The position numbers and the translations under genes are program-made. A stretch of DNA of 41,230 nucleotides from the NCBI GenBank assembly GCA_023701385.1, contig JAMPXC010000028.1:1-41230 (forward strand), written 5' to 3'. Within the stretch, counting starts at the first letter, position 1. Every line of letters starts with the position of its first letter. The notes under the pieces are model-generated. The model did no database searches, was not told the DNA's origin, and saw nothing but the letters and a program-made list of their open reading frames with translations. Shown here in pieces: positions 16,779 through 27,877 of the stretch. Source of the stretch: Pseudobdellovibrio sp. (GTDB lineage: Bacteria > Bdellovibrionota > Bdellovibrionia > Bdellovibrionales > Bdellovibrionaceae).

Positions 16779-16799
16779 AACTAAATGGTGCCCAGTGAG
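16779..16799 (+). repeat. Outer partial copy of the tRNA-Leu 3' end
   Basis: These 21 bases equal 25221-25241, the 3' end of tRNA-Leu and the bases just beyond it. The copy lies 75 bp outside the left end of the current element. The 54 bases between the two left copies contain no gene. It is probably a scar of an earlier integration at the same tRNA. Confidence 0.75.
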
Positions 16800-16853: not shown

Positions 16854-16878
16854 GAACTAAATGGTGCCCAGTGAGGGA
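16854..16878 (+). repeat. attL core of the integrative element
   Basis: This 25-bp block is identical to 25220-25244. It includes the last 17 bases of the tRNA-Leu gene (acceptor stem side and CCA, read on the plus strand) and 8 bases beyond it. It marks the left junction of the element. Confidence 0.85.
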
Positions 16879-17229: not shown

Positions 17230-17541
17230 ATGTCAACTCAGATAGGTAAAGTGTTTTCACAAATTATTAAAGAACGTCGCTATACGCTTAAGGAAATCTC
17301 CAAGGCTACTGGTGTGCCCGCCACAACTTTAGCGGAGTGGCAGGCTAACAGAACGCCTAAAAATCCGAATCAAGTGAAGTCTGTCGCTCAATTCTTAGGA
17401 GTCAGTCTTCATTACTTACTATTCGGTGAAGAAGATTCTCAAGAACCTATTGCTAAAATTATGAAAGAAGATTTTTTTAGCGGCACTTTTGAAATCAATA
17501 TTAAAAGAGTACATACAAATAAAAAAGGCGAGAAGTCTTGA
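17230..17541 (+). CDS. XRE-family HTH regulator, phage-repressor-like
   Basis: In this 103-residue protein the HTH_3 domain occupies residues 1-70 (YTLKEISKATGVPATTLAEW recognition region, then VKSVAQFLGVSLHYLLFG). The C-terminal 35 residues are basic, and there is no LexA-like peptidase domain. It probably represses its own operon through the three repeats upstream. Its TGA overlaps the TTG of the next gene (TTGA at 17538-17541), so it is coupled to the lipoprotein and probably to the NTPase. It may control the whole cargo or the element's lysogeny-like state. Confidence 0.85.
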   Translation: MSTQIGKVFSQIIKERRYTLKEISKATGVPATTLAEWQANRTPKNPNQVKSVAQFLGVSLHYLLFGEEDSQEPIAKIMKEDFFSGTFEINIKRVHTNKKGEKS

Positions 17542-17993
17542 AAAATTTATTTATTTGCTTATTTTTTTTATCGGGCTGTGCAACTGCAAGAGTTTGGGTA
17601 ATTTCGCAGGATGAGGGCGGAGGGGTTATTGGTTATCAAAACTATAATTCCGCATCTGACAATGGCATCAAGATAAAGCAGTTGTTACAGTGTTTAGATC
17701 ATAAAATGACCTACAACCCAATTAGGCAGGGATATTCAGCTCCTACAGCTTATCAAGCATACAATAATGGATACGGTTTTACGACAATCTATCCGCTTGA
17801 TGGGGGATCGTATGAATGGGGTGAGTATCATTATCGGTGCTTATCTAAAATATCTAGCTCAGTTCAAAGTATTACGCCTGAATCTCCATCTCTAAACGAA
17901 TGTAAAAAGACATGTGAGGGCATGAAGAGTCGACGGGAGTTAGCTTATTGGTTAACCATATCAGACTGTGTGAAGAAAATCTGCGAAAGATAA
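17538..17993 (+). CDS. Lipoprotein of unknown function in the KAP operon
   Basis: It starts at TTG 17538, overlapping the XRE stop. A short signal sequence ends in lipobox LSGC (Cys at residue 14). The mature protein (about 138 residues) begins ATARVWVISQDEGGGVIGYQNY, split by a Gly-rich turn. It is rich in Tyr and Gly in the middle and has a C-terminal helical part with CKKTC and CVKKIC pairs that could form disulfides. It is likely anchored in the periplasm or outer membrane. I recognise no family. Being sandwiched between a regulator and a membrane NTPase suggests a shared task. Confidence 0.7.
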   Translation: MKNLFICLFFLSGCATARVWVISQDEGGGVIGYQNYNSASDNGIKIKQLLQCLDHKMTYNPIRQGYSAPTAYQAYNNGYGFTTIYPLDGGSYEWGEYHYRCLSKISSSVQSITPESPSLNECKKTCEGMKSRRELAYWLTISDCVKKICER

Positions 17994-18034
17994 ATTGTTA
18001 TTTGTTAAGTTTCGAGTTCTTGATAAGATCACTC

Positions 18035-19171
18035 ATGCTATTTCTATTTAAATCTATTTTACTAATTTCTGATAAAGAGGATTATCCAAATGCTGTTTCT
18101 CAAATGCCAGGTGAGTGGGAAAAAGCAGCAGAGGAAATAAACGATACGGCCAAATATAAAGGAGAGGTTACTTTTATCATAGGGCCGTGGGGTTCAGGTA
18201 AGAGCACTTTCTTATCTACGTTGTTAGAGCAGAAAAAAACTAAATATAAAAATATCAAGCAGACTAGAAGAATAACGTTAAATACTGCTTCAAATTTGGA
18301 TGAAGTATTTAGCCAATTTGTTCCAGTTTGGATTAAAGTTTTTTATCTAATTGTTACAGTTCTTTTAATTGGGATCTCTCTATTTTATGTGTCGTGGGAC
18401 ACTATTGCCGAGTCCACTTTAAAAAGCCATCCTGCTCTTACAATATTTGCTGGTTTGTTCGCAGTATTTTTTTTAACAAATAAATTTCGACTGTTTTATA
18501 TTTTTTCATCTGGGTTAGATTTAATCACAGGGACAAAATTAGTGATTATTGAAGACTTCGATAGAGGTTCTTTATCTCATGGTGAAATTTATAACTCGAT
18601 GATGTTTCGTTTTAAAATGATAACTTCGTATGTCGTTGCATTGGGATATAGTTCTGAAGAGCAAAAAAACTCGTATGTTGAGACAGCATTAAAGTTAAAC
18701 GCAAAGATTATATTATTTAATTTATCTGAAAATAGTCTTTACGGAATTTTAACTTCTTTCTACTCAAATCCGCCAATGAATGCAGGAGCATGGATACTGA
18801 ATTTTCCGGCAAGAAAAATTATTTCAATTATTGCCAGAATTAACAAACACTCTATAGGTAAGAATGATGCAGAGAAAATTCATATCTTCTTAAAAATTTG
18901 GTTTGATGAGTTGGTTGAAGCCATTAAACTTCAAGACGCGGGTAAGTTAGCTTTTAGTGATAATGGACGATACATAACGTCACATAGTTACCATGAAAGT
19001 AATCAAAGAGACGCGATATATTCTTTTTTAAGATCAATTGATCACGCTAAGATTGCTGCTGCAGGAATTTCTTTCGGCAGTTCAGCTAATGCAGGCTCGG
19101 TGTATATGCATGATTGGCTCGTACAAGGTAAATATACTAATGGGTTAATAGGGCGAGTTGAGCTTATCTAA
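18035..19171 (+). CDS. KAP-type membrane P-loop NTPase
   Basis: With the ATG at 18035 the protein has 378 residues. Walker A is GPWGSGKST (50-58), and Walker B is LVIIEDFDR (169-177), with the DR pair typical of KAP NTPases. Between them lie two hydrophobic helices (about 98-119 and 133-157), the KAP hallmark of membrane segments inserted into the P-loop domain. The C-terminal 200 residues are not recognised. KAP NTPases are membrane-attached STAND-like ATPases often found in defence loci. A TTG at 17948 has a better Shine-Dalgarno (GGGAG) and would add 29 residues overlapping the lipoprotein gene, so the start is unsure. It is AT-rich compared with the host genes. Confidence 0.75.
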   Translation: MLFLFKSILLISDKEDYPNAVSQMPGEWEKAAEEINDTAKYKGEVTFIIGPWGSGKSTFLSTLLEQKKTKYKNIKQTRRITLNTASNLDEVFSQFVPVWIKVFYLIVTVLLIGISLFYVSWDTIAESTLKSHPALTIFAGLFAVFFLTNKFRLFYIFSSGLDLITGTKLVIIEDFDRGSLSHGEIYNSMMFRFKMITSYVVALGYSSEEQKNSYVETALKLNAKIILFNLSENSLYGILTSFYSNPPMNAGAWILNFPARKIISIIARINKHSIGKNDAEKIHIFLKIWFDELVEAIKLQDAGKLAFSDNGRYITSHSYHESNQRDAIYSFLRSIDHAKIAAAGISFGSSANAGSVYMHDWLVQGKYTNGLIGRVELI

Positions 19172-19181
19172 TAACATTTGA

Positions 19182-19760
19182 TCAGCGATTATTTTTTTTA
19201 TTATTTCTACGAAGGATTATGCCAGATTGGGGGCGGAAAATTACAATTGGGCTGTCTTTACAAATGGCTTCAAAAGGTGATTTCTTGATAACTGCGGGTA
19301 AATTATTTGTAGGCGTTGCGGGGGCCTTCACTGGTTCTTTTACGTGTTGTAAAGGTACTGTAGTAAGATCAAATGCTTCTGCTAGAATTTCACGTTCATG
19401 GTTAGTGTTAATCGGAGAGACATGACCATGCATTGAGTTTCTATTAGTAGGGCTATGGTAAACCTTAGCGGTAGCTGTTTCAGTGTGGGCAGCTAAATGC
19501 GTATTAACGCGATCAACTGTGCTGGTTGCAAATCCGATTTTTTTCTCATCACGAAGTTTGCTATATGTCGTAATTAAGTTACTTTCAACTGGTTGGGACT
19601 CGGACAGATCAATTGATACTTCGCCTTTTGGATCAAAGAAAGCTCCTGATAATACTTCTGTTGGTGGGGCCCAATGGGATACCCACCCGAATACTCTTCG
19701 AGTGCAGTGATGGCTAGGATTGGCTAGAGTAACTATTTTGGCTTTTTTACTTGAGCTCAT
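19182..19760 (-). CDS. Hypothetical protein, third gene of the TIGR04255 operon, with an HGH motif
   Basis: The start is ATG 19760, overlapping the preceding gene by 14 nt. The protein has 192 residues. TRRVF (20-24), GAFFDPKGEVSIDL (39-52) and GFATSTVDRV (76-85) come first, then HGHV (111-114) and ILAEAFDL (125-132). The layout (an early SGAFxP..ELSVD motif and a later HaHI/HaHV motif) recalls small uncharacterised proteins that I remember being encoded next to TIGR04255 and WDG-motif proteins. That link is from memory. The C terminus is low in complexity and basic. Its function is unknown. It is convergent with the KAP gene, with a 10-nt gap. Confidence 0.65.
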   Translation of the reverse strand: MSSSKKAKIVTLANPSHHCTRRVFGWVSHWAPPTEVLSGAFFDPKGEVSIDLSESQPVESNLITTYSKLRDEKKIGFATSTVDRVNTHLAAHTETATAKVYHSPTNRNSMHGHVSPINTNHEREILAEAFDLTTVPLQHVKEPVKAPATPTNNLPAVIKKSPFEAICKDSPIVIFRPQSGIILRRNNKKNNR

Positions 19761-20256
19761 TCTGAACAACAGAGATTAGATTCTCAATGGCTGCCGTGCC
19801 TCTTGAGCTACGATTTGTTTTTAAATCCTTAATTGACCACTCAAGTGCTTCTTCGTTTCCTGATACCATATAAAGTGTGATTTTTTTTGTGAGTGTCTTC
19901 CATAAGAGAATAACAGACCCATCAGCATTTGGCGCAATTTCCGGTTGTTTTCTCTCTTCAAATCTTTGAATAAATTCACGACTTAAATCAATAGAAGAGG
20001 GGTTTATCTTTAGGGCTTGGTATGTATCCCATCCATTATCCAGCTTTTCCATTTCCTTCAAGCCAAGGGTAATTCTTTGATTTAATGGGTGCACAGAAAG
20101 GCAATTGGCAGTGTTATCTGCTTTTAAATCTAGATAGAAAAAACTTTCTCCAACGCTAGGAAGTGTTGTGTAGTCCTCAGTAGGCTCAGCATTTAATCGG
20201 AGATACTGTAGCGAGGATTTATTTTGATCTTTTGATACAAGTCCAACATAAGTCAT
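19747..20256 (-). CDS. Hypothetical protein, second gene of the TIGR04255 operon, with GWDxY motif
   Basis: ATG 20256 overlaps the TGA of the upstream gene (ATGA), so I prefer it over ATG 20295. The 169-residue protein has LDNGWDTYQALKINPSS (72-88), then PEIAPNADGSVILLW (105-119). This matches a recurring pattern in uncharacterised proteins (L..gWDGyga.pps, then P.v.P..dG.v.leW). No catalytic residues can be assigned. Neighbouring overlaps of 4 and 14 nt show tight coupling, suggesting that the three products act together or in fixed ratio. Confidence 0.7.
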   Translation of the reverse strand: MTYVGLVSKDQNKSSLQYLRLNAEPTEDYTTLPSVGESFFYLDLKADNTANCLSVHPLNQRITLGLKEMEKLDNGWDTYQALKINPSSIDLSREFIQRFEERKQPEIAPNADGSVILLWKTLTKKITLYMVSGNEEALEWSIKDLKTNRSSRGTAAIENLISVVQNELK

Positions 20257-21023
20257 GACTGAAGCTCGTTTCTTAAATCGTCTGAAATTATCCATGTATA
20301 AACAGCAAAAATTCTGTCGTTTAAACTTTTTAATTCACTCTTAATATCGGCATTTTTTAGCTCAAAATTTAGAGTGTTTTGCATGTCTAAATCTATAACC
20401 AAAATATGGCCGTCTGAGGTAGATTTTGATGCATTTACTGTAACAATTGCTCTTACATTGTCTTTTTCTAAGACATATTTAGTTGCCGCAGATTTAACAG
20501 CTAATGAATCAAATTTATTGTTTTTAAGAGGGGTGAAAATCATTTCATTCGTTCCTGCCCCATTATAACCCGAATCTATAATACCAAGCTCGTTAATTTT
20601 TCTTATACCTAATCTAACAATTTTTTCTATTTTCAAGAATTTGTTTAGCTCAGCGAATGTAGCTAGTGAGCTGTCGCAAAAGCTGTCGAATGAATCGTAT
20701 TTTGTTATAAAAAACACAATTCGATTCTCGAACACTTCGGCGCCAAAAGTACCATCAGCATTACTAAAGTGGGTACTTTCTCTTTTATGTTCGCCTTCGC
20801 TAGATACTTTCATAGCATCATTTTCATTTGTGAACTTGAATTGAGCTTTCATCCCGAATCGAACATTAGCCTTGTCGTTAATATTCGATTTATAAAAAGC
20901 TTCCAACGCCTTCCAGTCTATTTCCCTCGCTGCAAAGCGAATCTCAATAAATGCTTGCTTGATGAAGTGTTTTTTGAAGTTTGTTCGTTGGATTTGCGGG
21001 ATATTGAACATTACAAAAATCAT
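20253..21023 (-). CDS. TIGR04255-family protein
   Basis: The 256-residue protein begins with the family-style segment KKHFIKQAFIEIRFA. It continues with an alternating strand/helix pattern, including RLGIRKINELGIID (the R-x-G-x-R-x-x-N element) and HILVIDLDMQNT, and it ends in a helical LNDRIFAVYTWIISDDL. TIGR04255 proteins are sporadically distributed, often in islands, and have no established activity. The start is ATG 21023 or ATG 21011; neither has a strong Shine-Dalgarno. It is the first gene of the three-gene minus-strand set. It lies 65 nt downstream of another minus-strand gene and could share its promoter. Confidence 0.75.
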   Translation of the reverse strand: MIFVMFNIPQIQRTNFKKHFIKQAFIEIRFAAREIDWKALEAFYKSNINDKANVRFGMKAQFKFTNENDAMKVSSEGEHKRESTHFSNADGTFGAEVFENRIVFFITKYDSFDSFCDSSLATFAELNKFLKIEKIVRLGIRKINELGIIDSGYNGAGTNEMIFTPLKNNKFDSLAVKSAATKYVLEKDNVRAIVTVNASKSTSDGHILVIDLDMQNTLNFELKNADIKSELKSLNDRIFAVYTWIISDDLRNELQS

Positions 21024-21751: not shown

Positions 21752-21820
21752 ACGGGTTAAACAAGGGAAAAGTGTAAAACAACCTAAGAATATATGGAAG
21801 CCTCTTCAATAGGAGGTTAC

Positions 21821-22105
21821 ATGATAACAAATGTACAAGAAAAAGAGTTTATAGACATCAATCAAGCCTCGGCTCTACTAGGCTTAAAAGTATCGAGAAT
21901 AAGATACGCGATTCGGCACAAGCAAATTCCACTAATTAAAGTTGGAAGGCTTATTCGATTCGACAAAATGCAACTTCAACAATGGGCGGAAAAAATGAGC
22001 CAAATGCCAACACAGACTCCCAGACAACTCGCGCGGGACATATCGCAAGCACGAAAGAAAATGCGAGAAATATACCGTGAACTAGATAAAAGATATGGGC
22101 CTTGA
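21821..22105 (+). CDS. Excisionase/AlpA-like HTH protein
   Basis: I chose ATG 21821 because AGGAGG lies 4 nt before it. ATG 21794 is in frame without one. The 94-residue protein has a MerR/HTH_17-type winged helix (residues 8-55): INQASALLGLKVSRIRYAIR, then KQIPLIKVGRLIRFDKMQLQQW. A basic helical tail follows (QLARDISQARKKMREIYREL). Such proteins act as excisionases or as regulators of integrase in mobile elements. Confidence 0.8.
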   Translation: MITNVQEKEFIDINQASALLGLKVSRIRYAIRHKQIPLIKVGRLIRFDKMQLQQWAEKMSQMPTQTPRQLARDISQARKKMREIYRELDKRYGP

Positions 22106-22180
22106 GTCAATGCAAAAACACTTTTTTGAAAAAAACTTGCCGAAATCGCAACCCCTTAACACTTGGAGAAATTAAACAAT

Positions 22181-22381
22181 ATGGATAAGAAATTATTAAA
22201 CGTGAAAGAAGTCAGTATTCTACTAAATGTAACTACAGGCAGAGTGTATAATTTAGTACATCGCAAGCGTATACCTCATCTAAAATTAAACTCTAGTCTC
22301 AGGTTTGATCCAGAAAAAATAGTCACTTGGTTAGGGCAAAAAGAAGTTGAAAACTCAGGAGACAAAAATGGCCTTTGTTAA
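22181..22381 (+). CDS. Second, shorter excisionase-like HTH_17 protein
   Basis: The 66-residue protein is almost entirely one helix-turn-helix domain (VKEVSILLNVTTGRVYNLVH, then RIPHLKLNSSLRFDPEKIVTWL). It is clearly related in layout to the gene at 21821, which suggests a duplicated regulator and excisionase pair. GGAG stands 11 nt before the ATG. It overlaps the next gene by 14 nt. Confidence 0.78.
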   Translation: MDKKLLNVKEVSILLNVTTGRVYNLVHRKRIPHLKLNSSLRFDPEKIVTWLGQKEVENSGDKNGLC

Positions 22382-22649
22382 TCTTCGCCAAAATCAAGGT
22401 AAAATTACAATAAAAACTGGGCAAGAATTTTTAAGAGAATTAGTTCATCTCGAGCGACAAACGAGACAGTCATTTATTCAGTCAGATAGAGTTACATCTG
22501 CTGATTTTATGAAGAATTGGATCGCTGTCGTCGCACTTATGCTTCGTAAAATTTCATCAATCACTTTAGGTGAAAGTGACTTGGATTATGAAGTCCAAAC
22601 ACCACTTTTTTATTTTTTGAATAACAAAGGGAATAGCAATGACCATTGA
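22368..22649 (+). CDS. Small hypothetical protein of the element's replication operon
   Basis: ATG 22368 follows AGGAG closely. A TTG at 22347 is in frame but less likely. The 93-residue protein is helical in the middle (FLRELVHLERQTRQSF) and ends at the start of the ATPase gene, overlapping it by 11 nt. No family is recognised. It may be an accessory to the downstream DUF3987-like protein. Confidence 0.65.
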   Translation: MAFVNLRQNQGKITIKTGQEFLRELVHLERQTRQSFIQSDRVTSADFMKNWIAVVALMLRKISSITLGESDLDYEVQTPLFYFLNNKGNSNDH

Positions 22650-23865
22650 TTTTACGAATATTGAAACTGGAAATGTAGGTGAGTTTGTAGAAATACTTCA
22701 TCCTTTAGTAGAGTCAAATAAGGAATCAATACTTATTCAATTATTAACTTGTTTCGGAAACTGTATTGGTAGAAGTGCACATTTCAGGGCCGCCGAAGAT
22801 AAGCATTTTGCAAACTTATTCGTTGCTGTGGTCGGTAAAAGCTCAAGAGGGCGAAAAGGTCAGTCGTTAAACTTAATTAAATCGCTTTTCGAGGAAGCTG
22901 ATTCCGAATGGTTCAATGAAAGGGTAAAGAAAGGCTTATCCAGTGGGGAAGGCTTGATTGCTCATATCAGCGATCACACCTTAGTTGACGGGGGTACATC
23001 ACTGGTAAGCGAAACAAAAGACAAACGATTATTGTGTGTCGAGAGTGAGTTTTCATCAGTTTTGAAAGTAGCTCATAGAGAAGGTAATATCCTTTCGCAG
23101 ATACTAAGAGACTCGTGGGATTCGGTTACTTTACAAACTTTGACGAAGAATAATCCCATCAAGGCAACTAACCCAATGGTATCAATTATTGGTCACATTA
23201 CAGATGCTGAGTTAATTAAATTTCTTAGCTCAACAGAAATTGCGAATGGATTGGCTAATAGGTTCATTTTTATTCGTGCCGCGAGTGATAAGCGATTAGC
23301 TAATCCAGAGCCAATCCCTGAAGAGGTGAAGACTTACTTGTCGAATTTGTTAAAGATTGCGATTGGTAAAGCGCGTGAGCGGGGCGTAATGCGATTCAGT
23401 CATGATGGATTGATTTTTTGGGAAGGCTTCTATGAGTCTTTATCAAATGATGATCCGACTATCGTTGGCAGTTTAACAGCCCGTCAAGAAGCACAGGTGA
23501 GGCGATTAGCCATGATCATAGCATTGATGAACGGCAAAGACTTAATAGATGCCGAATCGTTAATATTCGCAGTTAAAATTTTCGACTATTCTATTGAGAC
23601 TTTAAGGGAAATTTACGGCCATTCGTTTGGCGACCCTTTAACGGATAAGATGTTTGACCTGCTCAAATCATCCCCCGATGGTTCAAGCAGGTCTGAGATC
23701 AGTAACTTCTTTGGCAGAAATTATCAAAAAGGTAATTTAGATCGTAGTTTGGAGCTTTTGAAATCTCAAGGACTAATCAAATGCATAAAAAGCCAAAATC
23801 CAGCAGGAGGACGGCCGACTGAACACTGGATTCATTCTGACTTTATAACGAAAGAAACGAACTAA
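22639..23865 (+). CDS. DUF3987/YfjI-like ATPase of mobile elements
   Basis: The 408-residue protein has a variant P-loop, VVGKSSRGRKGQS (near residues 66-78), and an acidic strand RLLCVESEFSSVLK followed by a long helical ILRDSWDSV block. NPMVSIIGHITDAEL and GLANRFIFIRA come next, and then a C-terminal winged-helix-like tail (SRSEISNFFGRN, then LELLKSQGLI). This order matches DUF3987 proteins, found beside primases in phages and satellites and thought to be helicase-like. The missing primase part suggests it may rely on the host or a helper. AAAGGGA precedes the ATG. Confidence 0.7.
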   Translation: MTIDFTNIETGNVGEFVEILHPLVESNKESILIQLLTCFGNCIGRSAHFRAAEDKHFANLFVAVVGKSSRGRKGQSLNLIKSLFEEADSEWFNERVKKGLSSGEGLIAHISDHTLVDGGTSLVSETKDKRLLCVESEFSSVLKVAHREGNILSQILRDSWDSVTLQTLTKNNPIKATNPMVSIIGHITDAELIKFLSSTEIANGLANRFIFIRAASDKRLANPEPIPEEVKTYLSNLLKIAIGKARERGVMRFSHDGLIFWEGFYESLSNDDPTIVGSLTARQEAQVRRLAMIIALMNGKDLIDAESLIFAVKIFDYSIETLREIYGHSFGDPLTDKMFDLLKSSPDGSSRSEISNFFGRNYQKGNLDRSLELLKSQGLIKCIKSQNPAGGRPTEHWIHSDFITKETN

Positions 23866-24019: not shown

Positions 24020-25180
24020 ATGGAAATTATCAAAGGTAAAAAATCGCTTAAGTATAGAGAATCAATTCGTATTGCAGGAAAAGTTTTAAAAAGCCCACTC
24101 TTCAATCGTAAAACCGACTGTAATCTTTGGTTGGCTGAAAAAAAGGCTGAACGATCAAAGATAAAACTATTCGGTGATCTCGCTAAGTTTCATCAAAAAA
24201 TTTCAATCGTAGAATACGCACAACAGTGGCTCAAAACAAAAGAAGCTCAAGGTGTGTCGCGATCTACATTAAAGAATTATGATAGGTATATTCGTGTACA
24301 TATCATTCCCCACTTTGGCTCGGTGGATTTAAAATCAATTCAAAAGAGTCACGTAGAAGCATTTCAAATAAGTTTGAAGAAAAATCATAACCCTAAAGGT
24401 GTTAATATTATCATTACAGCATTGAAAGGTTTATTTCGAGAAGCAATTAAGGAAGGTTATTTGGTAAGAAGCCCTTGTGAATTTATCAAGGCTATTTCAA
24501 GCGATGATGTCCATGAAGTTTATTGGACAAAGTCTGAAATTGATCAGTTTCTTAGAGCTAACTACCAACATGAATTGTATGAATTATTTTTGGTGGCCTT
24601 AAACACCGGGATGAGAAAAGGGGAGCTCGCAGGATTGTGTTGGGATCGAGTTAATTTCGTGGATAACACTATTACTGTTTCTAGAACTCGAGATAAATAC
24701 GAATTAAAAGAAAGAACCAAGACTAAATTAAAAAGAGTGCTACCAATGAATGAGCTGACAAGAGTAACTTTGTTAAACTTATTCAATAAACGCATTAACG
24801 GAAATAGTTTGGTGTTTCTCAAAAATTCTGGTGAGGCAATAAATCCTCATCATGTTTATCGACAGTTCTATGTCGCGCAAAAGAAAGCAGGATTGAGTAA
24901 TTTCATTCGGTTTCATGATATTCGTCATACTTTCGCTACCCAATACATTATTAACGGCGGCAGCGTATATGATCTTCAGAAGTTCTTAGGACATACAACC
25001 ACAGCCATGACTCAAAGATACGCCCATCATTCGATGGATTATCTGCAGACGGTTATGAAAGGTTTTAGCTTAGGGGAAATCGGTCAAAAGGCAGAAGCTC
25101 TAAAAAGTGATGTTCTAATTTTTAAAAAGACGAATATCGAAGAAAGTACCCAAAATTCACCCAAAATCGTGAATCAGTAA
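24020..25180 (+). CDS. int: Tyrosine site-specific integrase
   Basis: The 386-residue phage-type recombinase has an N-terminal arm-binding region (1-65), a SAM-like core-binding domain (about 66-170: EYAQQWLKTKEAQGVSRST), and a catalytic domain. Catalytic residues are visible: Arg in LNTGMRKGELAGL, His-x-x-Arg in FHDIRHTFA, His in FLGHTT and the nucleophilic Tyr in QRYAHHS. It should insert and, with an excisionase, remove the element at the tRNA-Leu 3' end. The last codons overlap candidate arm sites (25148-25166). The gene ends 47 nt from the tRNA. Confidence 0.95.
   Translation: MEIIKGKKSLKYRESIRIAGKVLKSPLFNRKTDCNLWLAEKKAERSKIKLFGDLAKFHQKISIVEYAQQWLKTKEAQGVSRSTLKNYDRYIRVHIIPHFGSVDLKSIQKSHVEAFQISLKKNHNPKGVNIIITALKGLFREAIKEGYLVRSPCEFIKAISSDDVHEVYWTKSEIDQFLRANYQHELYELFLVALNTGMRKGELAGLCWDRVNFVDNTITVSRTRDKYELKERTKTKLKRVLPMNELTRVTLLNLFNKRINGNSLVFLKNSGEAINPHHVYRQFYVAQKKAGLSNFIRFHDIRHTFATQYIINGGSVYDLQKFLGHTTTAMTQRYAHHSMDYLQTVMKGFSLGEIGQKAEALKSDVLIFKKTNIEESTQNSPKIVNQ
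25148..25166 (+). repeat. Candidate integrase arm-type sites, right arm
   Basis: This 19-bp sequence is identical to 17033-17051 (ACCCAAAA, TT, CACCCAAAA). It lies inside the last codons of the integrase, about 55 bp from the right core. Confidence 0.5.
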
Positions 25181-25219: not shown

Positions 25220-25244
25220 GAACTAAATGGTGCCCAGTGAGGGA
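25220..25244 (+). repeat. attR core overlapping the tRNA-Leu 3' end
   Basis: It is identical to 16854-16878. The tRNA gene stays intact because the core restores its 3' end. Confidence 0.85.
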
Positions 25245-25314
25245 GTCGAACCCCCATGCCTCGCGGCGCTAGGTTCTAAGCCTAGTGTGTCTGCCAATTC
25301 CACCAACTGGGCAC
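25228..25314 (-). tRNA. tRNA-Leu (anticodon UAG)
   Basis: It is 87 nt with encoded CCA. The acceptor stem GTGCCCAG pairs with CTGGGCAC, and the D-arm (TGGTGGAATTGGCAGACAC) is typical of leucine. The anticodon stem CTAGG/CCTAG has loop CTTAGAA, giving UAG. There is a class II variable arm and a GGTTCGACTCC T-arm. It reads CUA/CUG-type codons. Its 3' end is the insertion site of the element on its left. Confidence 0.97.
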
Positions 25315-27187: not shown

Positions 27188-27224
27188 TACAGCATATATT
27201 GATTATAAATCAGCTGAAGCTTTG

Positions 27225-27240
27225 CATAACGATAGTTATG
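27225..27240 (+). promoter_or_regulatory. Inverted repeat over the start of the second HigB gene
   Basis: CATAAC (27225-27230), GATA, GTTATG (27235-27240): the right arm contains the ATG of the toxin gene. It could be an antitoxin operator or an RNA hairpin that hides the start codon. Confidence 0.4.
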
Positions 27241-27576
27241 GCAAAAAATAGTCGAAAAAATAAGCTTCTTGAAAAGTACTCCAATACGGAGTATTGTGGT
27301 GAACAAGTAATCTGGTCTAAAAGGGTTGAAAAACAGCTGGATAAATTGCCGATTAATATATTAGAAAAGTTTTATGACTGGCTAAATGCGATCGCCTTAA
27401 TGGGTATAACTGAAGCGAGAAAGCGCCCTGGGCTTCATGACGAACCTCTTGCAGGAATTAGACAGGGACAGAGATCGGTGAGGCTCAATAAAGCATATCG
27501 AGTTATTTATATAGAATCCGCAAATGGTAAATTTAAAGTTATTCAAGTCATTGAGGTGAATAAACATGACTACTAA
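27238..27576 (+). CDS. higB: HigB/RelE-superfamily toxin, second locus
   Basis: The 112-residue protein (ATG 27238; a TTG at 27199 is in frame) has the HigB layout: VIWSKRVEKQLDKLP, then KRPGLHDEPLAGI, RQGQRSVRLNKAYRVIYIE with the conserved Arg cluster, and a final VIQVIEVNKHDY. It is probably a ribosome-dependent mRNA interferase. The antitoxin gene overlaps it by 11 nt. It is not close in sequence to the HigB at 12493, so it is an independent locus rather than a duplicate. Confidence 0.85.
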   Translation: MAKNSRKNKLLEKYSNTEYCGEQVIWSKRVEKQLDKLPINILEKFYDWLNAIALMGITEARKRPGLHDEPLAGIRQGQRSVRLNKAYRVIYIESANGKFKVIQVIEVNKHDY

Positions 27577-27877
27577 AAAATGGTATGGAATTGAAGATCT
27601 AGAAAAAAAAATCGGCCCATTTACAATGGCTATGTTGTTGCGTTCTTTTCGCACGCGTGAAGAAATCTCACAGGTTGATTTTGCAAAAAAACTAAAAATT
27701 TCCAAAGCCAACTTATGTGATATTGAAAAAGGTCGCAAATTGGTGAGCATTGAACGAGCTGCTAAGTTTGCTAAAATTTTAAAAGATTCCGAGTTGTACT
27801 ATGTTAAAGTAGCTTTAGATGATCAGTTGCGTGCGGCTAATCTGAAGTACGAAGTTTTTATTAAAAAAGCTTCTTAG
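27566..27877 (+). CDS. higA: HigA-like XRE antitoxin, second locus
   Basis: The 103-residue protein has an HTH domain at about residues 33-85 (SQVDFAKKLKISKANLCDIE, then RAAKFAKIL) and a C-terminal extension of about 20 residues. It should bind the toxin and the promoter. Its stop overlaps the stop of the convergent Rsm22-like gene by 4 nt. Confidence 0.88.
   Translation: MTTKKWYGIEDLEKKIGPFTMAMLLRSFRTREEISQVDFAKKLKISKANLCDIEKGRKLVSIERAAKFAKILKDSELYYVKVALDDQLRAANLKYEVFIKKAS

Follow-up and report, generated by a model that had tools for sequence, protein, structure and literature searches.

Three coupled genes carried by a small integrative element of Pseudobdellovibrio sp. are proposed here to form a tripartite toxin-antitoxin-like module that most likely serves as abortive anti-phage cargo of that element, in which the third protein (P3) is the toxin, the second (P2) the antitoxin and the first (P1, of the TIGR04255 family) the third component. 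A probability of about 0.58 is given to this reading, in which the toxic protein, the binding, the trigger and the outcome are all inferred. In the window, which is the whole 41,230-nt stretch of DNA that was analysed, the cassette consists of the following genes:

20253..21023, minus strand: P1, first cassette gene, TIGR04255 family (longest open reading frame; NCBIfam TIGR04255, 67.1 bits)
19747..20256, minus strand: P2, proposed antitoxin with the motifs GWDxY / P-I-P-DG-V-W (matches the C-terminal portion of PADLOC PDC-M32A, E 7e-7; conserved family in the alignment)
19182..19760, minus strand: P3, SGAFxP / HGHV protein, proposed toxin (conserved family in the alignment)

All three open reading frames are intact, without any internal stop, and are transcribed in the order P1-P2-P3. 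P1 and P2 overlap by 4 nt (ATGA, within which P2 starts) and P2 and P3 by 14 nt, which is the strict coupling that a preliminary description of this DNA had reported. The motifs that it had named are also found, GWDxY / P..P..DG.V...W in P2 as NGWDTYQA and PEIAPNADGSVILLW, and SGAFxP / HGHV in P3 as SGAFFDP and MHGHV. Judged from its homologues in L015 and L016, which begin with MLNI, P1 probably starts at 21011 and not at 21023, where the longest open reading frame begins.

The three-gene arrangement recurs widely. GTDB was scanned with a DNA motif of P2 (GWDGY[GD]AxP), which is blind to P1 and P3, and 57 loci were found, 46 of which were verified by a local P2 profile. P1 lies upstream in 35/46 and P3 downstream in 35/46; 30 loci are complete, five contain P1-P2 and five P2-P3, always in the same order and on the same strand, and part of the incomplete loci are truncated by the edge of the contig or locus. 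The most frequent junction between P1 and P2 is the 4-nt ATGA overlap. The 46 loci span at least nine phyla, with Pseudomonadota, Bdellovibrionota, Planctomycetota, Verrucomicrobiota, Acidobacteriota, Nitrospirota, Bacteroidota, Ignavibacteria/Chlorobi and Cyanobacteria among the taxa represented, together with others. Within the phylum of the window, relatives of P2 and P3 adjoin 10 of the 19 TIGR04255 genes, the window counted. Chance is far from sufficient to explain the arrangement, as 30 of 46 independently found P2 loci are complete whereas TIGR04255 itself is confined to 18 of 291 genomes in this phylum. The preliminary description had held the three families to be neighbours in other bacteria and had named absent co-occurrence as its refutation; the co-occurrence is present, and the test did not refute it. 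The cassette is a real, widespread and uncharacterised three-gene bacterial unit. Searches of plasmids by tblastn with P1, P2, P3, one relative and an HMM consensus gave no matches, since the divergence within these families exceeds what a search with single sequences can bridge.

P1 covers model positions 2-251 of 252 of TIGR04255 at a score above the curated cut-off of 30 and is thus a member of this NCBIfam subfamily, which is annotated as "sporadically distributed" and for which NCBI offers only a name. The family is absent from 14 well-known control genomes, and the sporadic distribution claimed beforehand is evident from these counts. TIGR04255 is not mentioned in the literature searched, from which preprints and most subscription journals were excluded, and an earlier description is possible. 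Nor was any experiment on a cassette member found in that literature, in agreement with the earlier statement that the three families have no known function. A housekeeping or regulatory function, unrelated to defence and found on islands by chance, could be defended on this lack of experiments; it is very improbable given the sporadic occurrence of TIGR04255, the mobile context and the exchange of toxins described below.

The roles within the cassette were inferred from what follows TIGR04255 in other genomes. TIGR04255 genes were taken in three groups irrespective of P2, the window and the P2-selected genomes were omitted, and the genes downstream of the 60 remaining loci were classified. 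The P2 and P3 profiles had been partly trained on the first group, while the second and third groups are independent. A pair of P2-P3 type lies downstream in 27/60 (18 with both proteins, nine with only one recognised by profile). In other loci the third gene encodes an unnamed protein, called QDCDL here after its motif (S/T)Q(D/S)CD(L/I) (10/60), a VapC/FitB-like PIN protein (7/60), an HNH protein (3/60; two by pattern and L019 by reading) or a MazF/PemK protein (1/60), and the remainder are other or unclear. Since the PIN and QDCDL profiles derive from these same loci, the identity of the proteins is founded on external checks. By sequence search of the PDB, the third gene of L193 matches six MazF/PemK chains (E 0.006-0.0095), that of L203 matches VapC (E 3.6e-4), that of L215 FitB (E 0.008), that of L201 the PIN protein PAE0151 (E 0.005) and that of L004, weakly, retron HNH/PtuB proteins (E 0.4). 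The same search lent no support to HicA-like and Xre-like readings of L204 and L195, respectively.

In these exchanged cassettes TIGR04255 comes first, a small variable protein unrelated to P2 second and the toxin third. It is this placement from which P3 is inferred to be a toxin, P2 its antitoxin and TIGR04255 a shared third component; toxicity and neutralisation are themselves inferences. P2 and P3 also have the layout of a type II toxin-antitoxin pair, in which the antitoxin usually comes first, being small, coupled, co-directional and adjacent in 35/46 loci, and the suggestion of a toxin-antitoxin-like module made in the preliminary description gains support from the small gene and PIN, MazF/PemK or HNH gene that TIGR04255 precedes elsewhere, with function still inferred. 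The QDCDL protein is a candidate for a further toxin family (L008, L011, L180, L194, L195, L197, L200, L205, L206 and L212, each with TIGR04255, a small gene and then the QDCDL gene). An HTH-looking segment was seen in the small gene of L195 and L206, and also of L202.

The same exchange would suit a defence system without toxin and antitoxin, in which P1 recognises a phage product and P2 and P3 together make up an effector or a complex that modifies nucleic acids, without P2 neutralising P3. A sensor with swappable effectors fits the exchange of downstream genes and the P1-P2 fusion described below too, and the cassette occupies a slot for defence cargo. Several of the exchanged third genes are, however, classical toxins (MazF and VapC/FitB-like PIN proteins) that require an antitoxin, and the small gene that precedes them is placed as an antitoxin would be; we consider this alternative unlikely.

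The toxin-antitoxin-like reading can be compared with toxin-antitoxin-chaperone (TAC) systems, in which a SecB-like protein serves HigBA, HicAB and MqsRA pairs (PMC5105189) or CmdTA. Like the cassette, the HigBA, HicAB and MqsRA systems and CmdTAC, an abortive anti-phage module (PMC11618068), consist of three coupled genes and combine one third component with varied toxin-antitoxin families. That trait, a third component common to different toxin-antitoxin families, is met by TIGR04255, which precedes P2-P3, PIN, MazF, HNH and QDCDL genes. The cassette differs in that its third component is TIGR04255 and is encoded first, and in that its antitoxin and toxin families are distinct. Homology to SecB was not detected: no SecB chain occurs among the PDB sequence matches of P1 or among the fold matches listed, and a distant kinship is not excluded. 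VapBC/FitAB and MazEF are related to the cassette by position, their toxins occupying the same slot behind TIGR04255 in other genomes, whereas neither P2 nor P3 resembles them in sequence.

Several loci bear on the relation of P2 to its neighbours. In one genome (L096/L117) P1 and P2 are naturally fused into a single 414-aa protein that is followed by P3, which argues for a physical P1-P2 complex; L087, one of the seemingly incomplete loci, is on inspection a fused, complete copy of the cassette. Akkermansia carries P2-P3 alone, with TIGR04255 absent from the genome of L061, while in L029 a different 194-aa protein stands in place of P1. Together, the Akkermansia pairs and the L029 locus indicate that P2-P3 is the core pair and that the first gene is exchangeable. 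The fusion and the pairs without TIGR04255 agree with the assignment of toxin, antitoxin and third component.

Profile searches of the two small proteins, as the preliminary description had proposed, matched neither P2 nor P3 to any Pfam, NCBIfam or PHROG family, and P2 has no recognisable kinship to any known antitoxin. P2 does match residues 257-346 of the 375-residue PADLOC profile PDC-M32A. Two further readings of the middle protein were not borne out. The N-terminus of the Akkermansia P2 looks like a ribbon-helix-helix, which Pfam did not confirm. A hydrophobic segment of the kind associated with chaperone addiction was considered as a hallmark of the middle protein, and was rejected as such: it is strong in only 3% of P2 proteins and 19% of the other middle proteins, the corresponding figures for third genes and P1 being 10% and 5%.

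PDC-M32 is a computational phage-defence candidate, found in the literature searched only as a bare annotation in one paper. Its M32A resembles P2 over its C-terminal part only, and its N-terminal part differs from the TIGR04255 that one would look for there. Neither TIGR04255 proteins, P1 included, nor the natural TIGR04255-P2 fusion match M32A within positions 1-256, and the idea that M32A is itself such a fusion is ruled out, as a real fusion fails to match it. M32B is weakly matched by the P3 relative of L003 (E 0.018) and is not matched by the P3 of the window. By these profile comparisons, the cassette is not PDC-M32 as PADLOC defines it, since a full-length M32A match is absent and only positions 257-346 are found, in the separate P2 protein; P2 is nevertheless a relative of part of PDC-M32, and P3 probably is likewise, the two systems being distant cousins.

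Conserved residues of P3 in the alignment are R21, P44, S49 and H111. Its structural model is of moderate confidence (pLDDT 64.9; about 75 in the core), the tail after residue 135 is unreliable, and Foldseek found nothing with it. In a second fold comparison the best six matches were 6ede, 1s21, 9gco, 7ppo, 6b12 and 7rt7, all weak (Z 4.6-2.7). We take these proteins (Tpt1, AvrPphF/HopF, TreX, SdeA, Tne2 and RhsP2) to belong to the ADP-ribosyltransferase superfamily, and an ADP-ribosyltransferase-like fold of P3 is no more than a weak lead from a predicted model. An identification of P3 as a RES toxin (PF08808) was rejected, with a profile-profile probability of 0.1%. The ADP-ribosyltransferase lead is noteworthy because the toxin of the tripartite anti-phage system CmdTAC is an mRNA ADP-ribosyltransferase (PMC11618068).

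The AlphaFold2 model of P1 is more confident (pLDDT 82.5, pTM 0.80), and Foldseek gave no significant match to it. In the second fold comparison TATA-binding proteins came top (Z 8.0 over 162 residues at 4.3 A), tied with guanidino kinases. Because of this tie, the matches are read solely as a two-lobed arrangement, and the modelled likeness may reflect nothing beyond that common arrangement. For the protein that replaces P1 in L029 there is a weak match to DUF1779 "TATA-box binding" (E 0.017), a small hint that is concordant with the fold match of P1. No chaperone of any kind is among the P1 fold matches listed.

The preliminary description had also placed the cassette on an island, and the island is a mobile element of about 8.4 kb at a tRNA-Leu gene, with the following features:

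16854..16878: left attachment repeat, 25 bp that exactly repeat the 3' end of tRNA-Leu and its flank
17230..17541, plus strand: HTH repressor of the element (Pfam HTH_3, E 3e-6)
21794-22105 and 22163-22381, plus strand: two AlpA-like excisionase/regulator genes (sequence reading; similarity in sibling elements)
22639..23865, plus strand: primase/helicase-like protein (phrog_5311, E 7e-19; homologues mark sibling elements)
24020..25180, plus strand: tyrosine-recombinase-like integrase (read from the sequence; sibling elements have homologues)
25220..25244: right attachment repeat, which overlaps tRNA-Leu at its 3' end
25228-25312, minus strand: tRNA-Leu

The attachment repeats, at 16854 and 25220, delimit an element that contains the integrase, the primase/helicase-like gene, the two AlpA-like genes and the HTH repressor, with the cassette in its middle on the strand opposite to these genes. 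An additional 21-bp copy of the repeat at 16779-16799, 75 bp beyond the left end of the element, suggests that this tRNA-Leu received another insertion, either earlier or in tandem. Convergent with the cassette lies a gene (17948-19171, plus strand) for a P-loop protein of 407 aa, which appears to have two membrane segments and has only weak PifA/KAP-like matches; it is possibly a second cargo gene. Outside the element, two HigB/RelE-like + HTH pairs (12216-12795 and 27199-27877), recognised by reading alone, resemble ordinary type II toxin-antitoxin systems, and 13366-15120 encodes a secreted-looking protein with cysteine-rich repeats around FGVE(S/V)Y in its C-terminal part.

Sibling elements, recognised by homologues of the primase, were found in 10 of 281 genomes of this phylum. 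Their cargo, located beside the same HTH gene or elsewhere within the element, includes a retron in L135 (reverse transcriptase and deoxyribosyltransferase effector), the type IV restriction enzyme Mrr (L131, E 2e-95), a RelA/SpoT protein of 950 aa (L134; PDC-S33) and, in L129, an HSDR_N-like protein. The same HTH gene adjoins the cassette in L106 and L108, and its homologue adjoins other cargo in sibling elements. The preliminary description had suggested a defence module, and such cargo sustains the suggestion, with protection against phage inferred. In other phyla the cassette is found near genes for type III methylase, UvrD-type helicase, SoFic, AbiEii, Panacea antitoxin and HSDR_N. Random control sites also give matches to generic PADLOC models, so the enrichment of the neighbourhood outside this phylum can be stated only qualitatively. 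The cassette adjoins a RelE-like gene and a UvrD helicase gene in L038, L047 and L049 and lies directly downstream of an apparent type III methylase gene in L038 and L049; a restriction locus may thus enclose it in these three cases.

The mobile setting raises the question of addiction, namely that a tripartite toxin-antitoxin module was selected for retention of the element and not for phage defence. The cassette rides an element with an intact integrase and attachment repeats, toxin-antitoxin pairs are classical stabilisers, and P2-P3 and P1-P2-P3 are also found in prophage-like viral contigs. Many copies in other phyla nevertheless lie in ordinary chromosomal settings or near restriction genes, and in sibling elements the same slot is filled by dedicated defence genes. 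We regard selection for retention alone as doubtful, though still credible.

Viral contigs gave no confirmed match in close-profile scans; the GWDGY DNA motif succeeded instead, and a second motif scan found 23 loci, all with P2. P1 and/or P3 lie beside P2 in at least seven of them (L137, L138, L142, L144, L145, L150 and L156). In the remaining sixteen (L036, L037, L139-L141, L143, L146-L149, L151-L155 and L157), P2 stands alone, the profiles recognising neither P1 nor P3 in its vicinity; the proteins are mostly of 110-170 aa, and some of the contigs are of 186, 210, 424 and 597 kb. In a P2 tree, built from a short alignment and with supports unexamined, the stand-alone phage copies fall into several groups, some among cassette copies. 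It is possible that they are counter-defence antitoxins that silence the module, silencing being inferred.

Based on the abortive anti-phage reading, we propose that P2 would hold the toxin P3 in check and that P1, fused to P2 in some genomes, would bind P2 and either stabilise it or report infection. A phage product or stress may then disturb the P1-P2 complex, upon which P2 would be lost, P3 freed and growth stopped. The enzyme activity of P3 and the role of P1 are inferred. A broader proposal, which we put forward only tentatively and as short of probable, is that TIGR04255 is the shared third component of tripartite toxin-antitoxin systems that form an undescribed, non-SecB superfamily and whose toxins come from at least five families (P3, PIN, MazF, HNH and QDCDL). 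P3 and P2 would then be new families of toxin and antitoxin, respectively, and the stand-alone phage P2 proteins counter-defence antitoxins directed against these systems.

These results give a testable role to three protein families without described function, of which TIGR04255 is spread across many phyla, and the cassettes, being small and self-contained, can be tested directly in laboratory E. coli. The stand-alone P2 genes of phages suggest an arms race around the cassette, and the findings point to a second, SecB-independent lineage of three-part toxin-antitoxin systems.
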